Shown here: positions 10,857 to 12,538 of the stretch, piece by piece
How the letters are laid out: the number at the start of each line of letters is the position of its first letter
Position numbering within the stretch: position 1 is the stretch's first letter
Origin: Actinopolyspora alba
GTDB taxonomy: Bacteria > Actinomycetota > Actinomycetes > Mycobacteriales > Pseudonocardiaceae
Direction of reading: 5' to 3'
DNA length: 64,000 bases
Assembly (NCBI RefSeq): GCF_900112765.1
Contig: NZ_FOMZ01000003.1
Location: 62,001-126,000 of the forward strand
Made by a program: the position numbers and the translations under genes
Notes under the pieces: generated by a model
Databases searched by the model: none
Told to the model about the DNA's origin: nothing
The model's input: the letters and a program-made list of their open reading frames with translations, nothing else

Positions 10857-10958
10857 TCACCGTTGCGGGAGCCCGGCGAGGAGTGCCCCGGAGGGGACGC
10901 TTCTCGACTCGGGCAACCCGTCTTCGCGGTTACGAGCGCGGAAAGCCGCCACGTTCAC
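10857..10958 (-). pseudogene. C-terminal end of a CGNR zinc-finger gene, separated by the TnpB element
   Basis: On the minus strand this segment encodes V-N-V-A-A-F-R-A-R-N-R and about 22 further residues to a TGA at 10857-10859. That is the basic tail that follows C-G/A-N-R in CGNR (ABATE-type) proteins. It carries straight on from the fragment at 12363-12524 if bases 10959-12362 are removed: the codons join GCG AAT CGG | GTG AAC GTG without a frame change. It has no start of its own. Confidence 0.75.
10954..10958 (+). other. TTCAC target/TAM motif at the left end of the element
   Basis: The pentanucleotide TTCAC directly abuts the inferred left end. IS200/IS605-family elements insert 3' of a short AT-containing target without duplicating it, and TnpB uses the same motif as its TAM. 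TTCAC fits that pattern (family knowledge); the position follows from the restored reading frame of the interrupted gene. Confidence 0.65.
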
Positions 10959-11066
10959 CAGGCTCCAATTGCTGGAAGCTCCGGTCTTCGGGCTGGAGAG
11001 GAAGGCGGTCTCGAGTGCTGTTGGGTGACCACGTACCCACGTTCTTACTCGTGATCGCTAGTTGTG

Positions 11067-11072
11067 TAAAAT
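11067..11072 (+). promoter_or_regulatory. -10 element of tnpB
   Basis: TAAAAT lies seven bases before ATG 11080. With a start point at or next to the ATG this would give a leaderless tnpB mRNA, as for several host genes in the window. No convincing -35 was seen. Confidence 0.45.
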
Positions 11073-11079
11073 GATCGGT

Positions 11080-12234
11080 ATGCGGACGGCGTACAAGTGC
11101 CGGGCCTACCCGGACTCCGAACAAGCGGCCCAACTGGGGCGCACGTTCGGCTGTGTGCGTCTCGTGTGGAACAAAACTCTCGATCAGCGGCACCGCGTCT
11201 ACCACACCGAAGGCAAAAAGACCTCGTACACCGAAACCGACGCGGCCCTGTCCGAATGGAAACGCACCAGCGAGCTGGCGTTCCTGTCGGAAGTCTCCAG
11301 CGTTCCGCTGCAACAAACCCTGCGGCACCAGCACACCGCGTACCAGAACTTCTTCGCCGGACGCGCCAAATACCCGCGCTTCAAGTCCCGCACTGGGCGG
11401 CAGTCGGCGCACTACACCCGCTCCGCGTTCAAACTGCGCGACAGGTCTCTGACGCTGGCGAAGCAGACCACGCCGCTGAACTTCGTGTGGAGTTGGGACG
11501 CCGAAACCCTGCGTGACCTGAACCCCACGATGGTGGTGGTCTCCCGCGAACCGGACGGGCGTTGGTACGTGACCTTCGCCGTCGACACCGACGATCCCGA
11601 ACCCTCCGCGTCGACCGGCGAGTCCATTGGCATCGATCTCGGGGTGAAAGACTTCGCCGTGCTGTCCACCGGGGAAACCATCGCCAACCCGCAGCATATG
11701 GACCGCAAGGCCCGCAACCTTGCCCGGTATCAGCGGATGATGGCCCGCAAACAGCGCGGCTCGAACAACCGTCGTAAGGCCAAGCGCAAGGTGGCGCGCG
11801 CGCACCGCAAGGTCCGCCACGCGCGGCAGGACTTTCTGCACCGCACCACCACGAACCTCGTGCGCCGTGCCGATGTCATCGCGATCGAAGACCTCAACGT
11901 CGCGGGCATGACCAGTTCGGCGCGGGGCACTGTCGAATCTACGGGCCGCAACGTGGGCGCCAAAGCCGGACTCAACCGGGCAGTGCTGGACGCCGCGTTG
12001 GGCGAGTTCCGCAGGCAGTTGGAGTACAAAACCACCCGCGCGGGCAAGACACTGGTTGTGGTGGACCGGTGGTACCCGTCCAGCAAAACGTGCTCCGCAT
12101 GCGGGCACCTGCTGAGCAACCTGAAGCTTTCCGTTCGGGCATGGTCGTGCCCCGACTGCGGCACCCGGCACCACCGGGACCACAACGCCGCGAAGAACAT
12201 CCGTGCCGCTGGTCAAGCGGTAGCCGGGCCATAA
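11080..12234 (+). CDS. tnpB: RNA-guided endonuclease TnpB
   Basis: 384 residues. TnpB is the compact RuvC nuclease ancestral to Cas12. All catalytic positions are present: Asp in 'SIGIDLGVKDFAVL' (RuvC-I), Glu in 'VIAIEDLNVAGM' (RuvC-II), the C4 zinc ribbon 'CSACGH' and 'CPDCG', and Asp in 'HHRDHNAAKNI' (RuvC-III). The N-terminal 'MRTAYKCRAYPDSEQAAQLG' is the usual start, which with TAAAAT upstream favours ATG 11080 over TTG 11062 or ATG 11071. It stops at TAA 12232-12234 right after the last catalytic motif. The same frame then stays open to the element end with a TnpB-like tail, so the stop looks premature relative to longer relatives but should leave the nuclease intact. Confidence 0.92.
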   Translation: MRTAYKCRAYPDSEQAAQLGRTFGCVRLVWNKTLDQRHRVYHTEGKKTSYTETDAALSEWKRTSELAFLSEVSSVPLQQTLRHQHTAYQNFFAGRAKYPRFKSRTGRQSAHYTRSAFKLRDRSLTLAKQTTPLNFVWSWDAETLRDLNPTMVVVSREPDGRWYVTFAVDTDDPEPSASTGESIGIDLGVKDFAVLSTGETIANPQHMDRKARNLARYQRMMARKQRGSNNRRKAKRKVARAHRKVRHARQDFLHRTTTNLVRRADVIAIEDLNVAGMTSSARGTVESTGRNVGAKAGLNRAVLDAALGEFRRQLEYKTTRAGKTLVVVDRWYPSSKTCSACGHLLSNLKLSVRAWSCPDCGTRHHRDHNAAKNIRAAGQAVAGP

Positions 12235-12362
12235 CCCGGCGAAGCCTGTGGAGCCGGTATCAGTCCGCAAGGGTCCTCCCTTCGGCAATCGGCGACGAAG
12301 CAGGAACCATCGGGCGCGAGCCCGATGGGAATCCCCGCCCTTCAGGGCGGGGAGGGAGTCAA
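12200..12362 (+). ncRNA. Predicted omega RNA (reRNA) overlapping the 3' end of tnpB
   Basis: TnpB guide RNAs are made from the right end of the element and run past it. This segment has three hairpins: AAGGG-TCCT-CCCTT (12269-12282), CCATCGGGC-GCGA-GCCCGATGG (12307-12328, GNRA tetraloop) and CCCCGCCC-TTCA-GGGCGGGG (12333-12352), then the terminal GGAGTCAA. The guide would be the flank from 12363 (CCGATTCGCACAGCGG), which next to TTCAC is exactly the empty insertion site. The 5' boundary is a guess. Confidence 0.6.
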
Positions 12363-12524
12363 CCGATTCGCACAGCGGGCCGAACAGAACTGTTCGGTTC
12401 GGTTCGCCGTGGTGTCCGGGAAGTAGTTAGCACAGTCCGGGGCCGTGCACCTGCCCCATCGGTCGCTGCCGTGTAGCACCACTCCTTGCGCGAGTCCCCA
12501 CGCGGCGACCGCTGCCGTTTCCAC
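12363..12524 (-). pseudogene. CGNR zinc-finger domain fragment interrupted by the TnpB element
   Basis: The minus strand encodes 'ETAAVAAWGLAQGVVLHG' then 'RWGRCTAPDCANYFPD' and 'RTEQFCSARCANR', the CGNR zinc-finger signature (C-x4-C ... C-x3-C-A-N-R). This is the C-terminal domain of ABATE/CGNR transcription-factor-like proteins, which normally carry about 120 further N-terminal residues. Those are missing: upstream the sequence runs into the start of dinF on the other strand. GTG 12524 could start a short protein but has no ribosome-binding site. The 3' part is at 10857-10958, beyond the element. Confidence 0.75.
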
Positions 12525-12538
12525 CGCCTGGAGGTGTG

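Follow-up and report, generated by a model that had tools for sequence, protein, structure and literature searches.

The stretch 10959..12362 (plus strand) of the window, which is the whole 64,000-nucleotide stretch of DNA that was analysed, is a TnpB-only (IS1341-type) insertion sequence of the IS200/IS605 family, 1404 bp in length, in an Actinopolyspora genome of 5.24 Mb and 42 contigs (G000). It lies between a gene matching RBFA and a gene matching MatE. The element belongs to an already known kind, of which this copy is a new member, and the evidence for its ends is unusually good for so ordinary a kind of element. It is probably a non-autonomous element, which would be helped in trans by a Y1 TnpA, insert 3' of TCAC and be copied back through the action of TnpB. 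The only domain-bearing gene between its ends is tnpB and there is no tnpA, in agreement with the element type claimed in an earlier note on this DNA. When the flanks are joined without 10959-12362 they read GTTCAC|CCGATT, and the antisense frame across the join reads ...EQFCSARCANR|VNVAAFRARNR.... All same-genus genomes aligned over the site (G009, G005, G004, G003 and G008) are empty, with a gap of zero at the join in each of the five; TTCAC adjoins CCGATT or CCGGTT and no base is gained or lost. The sequence CCGATTCGCACAG is identical in G009, G005 and G004, and differs at three positions in G003 and G008. Thus, the junction that the earlier note predicted for relatives is seen in all five siblings, its claim that target duplication is absent is borne out by the same alignments, and its placement of both ends at 10959 and 12362 is upheld by these empty sites together with the ends of other copies. 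The base C at 10959 is the same as that at 12363, so the flanks alone permit either 10959-12362 or 10960-12363, a 1-bp ambiguity; the other copies, in which TCAC is followed by C and TCAA by one base or another, favour 10959-12362. Sibling comparisons were made at five sites, of which four are simple (the window, L009, L003 and L047) and the fifth, L002, is complex. At the four simple sites, empty sites reveal precise insertion 3' of a short motif without target duplication. The L009 site is empty in G000, G005 and G004, the L003 site in G009, G004, G005 and G003 (that of G004 reads TTAC), and the L047 site in G000 and G004.

The gene interrupted by the element encodes a CGNR protein on the minus strand. 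Its 3' part (10924..10958; bases 475-509 of the sibling frame) is identical to G009 at 34 of 35 bases and its middle part (12363..12528; bases 309-474) at 149 of 166, while the first 308 nt are missing. On the sibling's gene of 170 codons (G009 frame) the two fragments meet between bases 474 and 475, so that they join without loss or doubling. At this place 9/9 same-genus siblings have an open antisense frame that contains the CGNR motif and measures 173-177 codons from stop to stop; counted from the ATG, the frame amounts to 170 aa in the three that were checked (G009, G005 and G004). The G009 protein matches Pfam zf-CGNR with 55.5 bits, and barely matches ABATE (25.4 bits vs a cut-off of 24.4). 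In comparison with G009, 364 bp are absent at 12527/12528, corresponding to the 308 nt of the CGNR 5' end and spacer toward the MatE gene; the native stop is also gone in the window copy, where the frame continues to 10857. Owing to the loss of the 364 bp and the stop codon, the CGNR gene of the window is a remnant, and the lower identity of the 166-base fragment to G009 (90%, vs 98% for the rbfA stretch and 96% for the MatE stretch) fits a decaying gene. The 364-bp deletion was considered as a product of the element, but as it is bounded by neither TCAC nor TCAA it is not ascribed to the element. It also removed most of the upstream spacer of the MatE gene (window 12527-12536) and perhaps took the promoter of that gene too. 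Accordingly, the restored CGNR gene of the earlier note stands as far as the continuous frame at the join is concerned, although the gene additionally lacks the 364 bp and its native stop. The claim that the ends, target and ancestral sequence can all be read from one genome holds for the join and the frame, but went slightly too far, given the 1-bp ambiguity and the further damage to the remnant.

The sites used for counting end motifs belong to six genomes of Actinopolyspora and to two from elsewhere in the family (G014 and G021, of other genera). Left ends were counted with one row per insertion site (n = 15), leaving out partial matches without a readable end and dropping duplicates, viz., L001, L008, L039 (window), L048 (L002), L040 (L010), L052 (L042), L058 (L051) and L064 (the L056 site in G005). 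The 16 readable right ends include L056 and L057, which are one site in two species; the remote partial right ends L043, L059 and L060 are outside the count, and two of them (L043 and L059) read TCGA. The left cleavage site of the window copy is TTCAC (10954..10958, plus strand), which is presumed to serve also as the target-adjacent motif (TAM) of the nuclease. Its core is TCAC, found at 13/15 unique sites, with TTCGC and TTCCC at the other two, and the preceding T is present at 10/15. This T precedes 8/13 TCAC sites vs 97/581 TCAC occurrences elsewhere in the window (binomial P 3.5e-4), and precedes the target at 10 of the 15 insertion sites with P 2.2e-5; the preference may reflect either TnpA or TnpB and does not tell these apart. 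Hence TTCAC, proposed as the target in the earlier note, is indeed the motif at the left flank, but it is preferred rather than required. The right cleavage site TCAA forms the last bases of the element (12359..12362, plus strand) and is in place in 15/16 readable right ends, followed by a variable base. As for the longer end words given in the earlier note, CAGGCTCC (left) and GGGAGTCAA (right), they describe the subgroup of this copy, but other copies differ, with for example CTTTTCTCC at the left and mostly GAAGTCAA at the right; a strict right-end pattern searched across the own genome matched no copy besides that of the window.

Each cleavage site has a candidate guide word at the foot of a terminal hairpin. 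The left guide GAAG (10975..10978, plus strand) is part of GGAAG in 15/15 readable left ends, and the right guide GAAT (12329..12332, plus strand) is found in 13 of 16 readable right ends and lacking in three. For IS608, PMC5934647 gives TTAC/AAAG as left site and guide, making AAAG the counterpart of the left guide, and TCAA/GAAT as right site and guide, so that the right guide of the window copy equals the IS608 GR. On our reading of these IS608 words, a guide would consist of the complement of base 2, the complement of base 1, A, and the complement of base 4 of the cleavage site. By this rule TCAC calls for GAAG and TCAA for GAAT, and both are present, so the guide words at the hairpin feet fit the cleavage sites. 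In other elements, whose ends were placed by eye and without empty sites, the words vary. Copies of Actinomadura latina lie after TCAT and have the guide GAGA; TnpA-bearing elements of the genus lie after TGAC with TAAG or CGAG (family 1) or after TCAC with GATG (family 2); and Nocardia copies, also after TCAC, have AAAG or GAGG and agree less well with the rule. By way of caution, a Sulfolobus islandicus element with a right end ending in TTCAC has TTTAA as its TAM (PMC11043419).

The right hairpin CCCCGCCCTTCAGGGCGGGG (12333..12352, plus strand) is well supported by the DNA fold of 12300-12362 (z -5.62, 0/200 shuffles as good). The left imperfect palindrome CTCCGGTCTTCGGGCTGGAG (10979..10998, plus strand) corresponds to a homologous stretch that forms a hairpin of 8-9 bp in the copy L002 (z -1.89) and in the TnpA element L081 (z -3.44). 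In the window copy itself DNA folding does not predict the left hairpin, with z 0.51 for 10959-11024 (141/200 shuffles as good) and z -0.79 for 10975-11000 (42/200 shuffles as good). Given this weakened left hairpin, the window copy may be a poor substrate and perhaps less mobile than others.

The tnpB gene (11080..12234, plus strand) encodes 384 aa from the ATG at 11080, with further in-frame starts upstream at 11071 and 11062, and its product contains the OrfB_IS605, TNB and HTH_OrfB domains. The guided_TnpB model matches with 349.8 bits (cut-off 100). In an alignment with ISDra2 TnpB, of which D191 is a catalytic residue (PMC8612924), the RuvC residues D, E and D are kept (GIDLG/GVDVG, IAIEDL/IGTEHL and RDHNAA/RDENAA). 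TnpB also occurs in IS607 elements, and the NCBIfam IS607_TnpB model gives 197.9 bits, but it is extremely improbable that the element is of the IS607 type, with a serine recombinase as its mover, since IS200_TnpB scores higher at 331.1 (both models being under their own cut-offs, that of IS200_TnpB being 425) and fixed TCAC/TCAA sites with guides at the hairpin feet are the layout of IS605. Downstream of tnpB, the scaffold of a predicted right-end RNA (reRNA or omega RNA) occupies 12241..12362 (plus strand) and may start further upstream. The stretch 12200-12362 folds with z -5.85, and in the 122 bases before the right end 31 consensus pairs are found over 25 sequences, 15 of them with a compensated double change (uncorrected for kinship) and some broken in up to 6 sequences. 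This alignment used 25 of 27 references, L003 being a duplicate and L119 having no end by the pattern. By analogy to ISDra2 (PMC8612924), the guide segment of the reRNA would start at 12363, in the flank, and presumably covers 12363..12382 (plus strand).

The sole Rfam match above its gathering score is Sernc389, an antisense sRNA of Saccharopolyspora, which matches window 11267-11861 on the minus strand, antisense to tnpB, scoring 273 bits where 74 is the gathering score; the match perhaps reflects just the coding similarity of tnpB. HgcC, annotated in Rfam as a plain gene RNA, matches the right-end RNA at 12251-12369 below its gathering score (29.6 bits vs 50), and may itself be part of a TnpB element; no paper naming both HgcC and TnpB was found in the open-access literature searched. 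Matches to sot0042 (21.2, gathering 88) and CRISPR-DR9 (19.2, gathering 45) were set aside as lying below the gathering scores.

A search of the own genome with PF01797 found one Y1 TnpA, divergent to a TnpB that is 35% identical to the window TnpB, with the frame apparently shifted near the 3' end; the left flank of the element bearing it is TGAC, not TCAC. The left ends of TnpA-bearing elements align with that of the window at and around the hairpin, and several of these elements have right ends with GAATCCC...GTCAA in common. This homology of ends between the window copy and TnpA-bearing elements of its genus makes it likely that a Y1 transposase helps in trans. Y1 TnpA is present in 10 of 25 genomes searched (G000-G015 and G025-G033) and, in some cases only as fragments, in 7 of 14 others (a second search that includes G016, G021 and G022), and was not found by these searches in the other 15 and 7, the Actinomadura latina draft among them; G017-G020, G023, G024 and G034-G040 are outside these searches. 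The genome scan gave at least 590 stretches and at least 541 relatives, of which the best 80 were used, some loci ending at contig ends. For the 28 closest of these (44-87% TnpB identity), tblastn with nine TnpA sequences found TnpA in none of the fetched loci, and for the next 52 it found TnpA within the locus in nine. The 28 include three loci of Halosaccharopolyspora lacisalsi (G014) and one of Actinopolyspora righensis (G005).

The homologous left ends of TnpA-bearing elements in the same genus, and the weak left hairpin of the window copy, would also suit an ordinary IS605 element that is now dead after a recent loss of tnpA. We consider this unlikely, as TnpA was found in 0 of the 28 closest loci, which are drawn from the best 80 of at least 541 relatives, come from several actinobacterial genera and are in a few cases cut by contig ends; moreover, there are several copies per genome, TnpB is open in the window, and it is just 35-40% identical to most TnpBs of family 1. 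PMC9956272 treats as undecided the question of autonomy or decay in IS1341 elements, and makes a case for their independent evolution; the present group fits an old TnpB-only state. In the open-access literature searched, no paper was found on Actinopolyspora and TnpB.

Three full TnpB-only copies, 98-100% alike and at different sites after TCAT, are present in Actinomadura latina (L114-L116 in G049), in whose draft genome PF01797 found no Y1 TnpA. Such copies could be taken to suggest spread mainly through TnpB-guided homing and repair, without a transposase. This is very unlikely to be the main route, since homing requires a new site to match the old guide, yet the right flanks of the listed copies differ and insertion is exact at unrelated sites, while in A. 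latina a helper may be missing from the draft assembly or may have been lost.

For the non-autonomous element helped in trans, we envisage the following cycle. The element would have reached its place 3' of TTCAC in the CGNR gene in single-stranded form ('peel and paste'), through a Y1 (HUH) TnpA provided by an IS605-type element whose ends are homologous. GAAG, at the foot of the left hairpin, would pick the target TCAC, and GAAT, at the foot of the right one, would fit the right cleavage site TCAA. In the absence of duplication, precise excision restores the site. TnpB, with the RNA from the right end and about 16-20 nt of flank, would then be expected to cut the restored site TTCAC|CCGATTCGCACAG, and the element would be copied back from the sister chromosome.

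The least expected result is a pair of flanking deletions bounded by the cleavage motifs. The flanks of the own-genome copy L002 (G000:C27:79111-80530) are 452 bp apart in G009 and G005 (siblings L208 and L209), and in both the missing stretch begins directly behind one TTCAC and includes a second TTCAC as its last bases. This stretch holds a PadR-like gene (74.9 bits), which has therefore been lost along with the 452 bp. The second case is the L047 site, which in G005 (L235, G005:C9:27770-28050) is empty and lacks CGAGTCAA, the 8 bases that follow the TCAA of the element in G009 and themselves end in TCAA; the empty sites of G000 and G004 read CGAGCCAA in place of CGAGTCAA. The junction of G005 thus lies exactly after the second TCAA and is a possible footprint of excision. 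We tentatively raise the possibility, which we hold to be rather doubtful, that the cycle of excision and insertion goes astray at nearby copies of the element's own cleavage motifs and deletes the host DNA between them. Cleavage at an incorrect site with the right motif would account for the L047 case and, together with re-insertion, for the L002 case as well; the ordinary alternatives are recombination between two copies at L002 and a chance 8-base deletion at L047. The right flank of L047 (G009:C1:3333163-3335375) contains a dispersed repeat of ~150-260 bp, for which most Actinopolyspora genomes have dozens of matches. G000 has TTCAA at its empty L009 site (L211, G000:C28:158650-159350) vs TTCAC in G005 and G004, with TCAC in G008 and G002 and CTAC in G007; an excision scar was considered for G000, but a plain C-to-A change explains it equally well.

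Taken with its copies, the element represents an actinobacterial TnpB family for which exact ends, a candidate TAM (TTCAC or TCAC), empty sites and helper candidates are available in one genus. If the motif-bounded deletions do come from the cycle, TnpB-only elements would also be agents of deletion. Like other IS1341-type elements, that of the window has a single tnpB between left and right ends and no tnpA, and its 1404 bp are close to the 1252-1393 bp given for shorter IS1341 elements in PMC9956272; it differs in its TCAC target and GAAG guide, which are the set of this actinobacterial group. It shares with IS608 of Helicobacter pylori an identical right site and right guide, whereas the left site and guide differ in step with each other, and IS608 carries its own tnpA. 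As TnpA-bearing relatives with homologous ends lie after TGAC, a change in the transposase's DNA guide, and presumably also in the nuclease's TAM, has taken place in nature between these and the present element. The TnpB of ISDra2 from Deinococcus radiodurans is homologous to that of the window over residues 4-383, with the catalytic residues aligned and the RNA (predicted for the window) derived from the right end in both; however, the TAM of ISDra2 is TTGAT (PMC8612924), whereas that of the present element is presumed to be the TTCAC or TCAC of its target.
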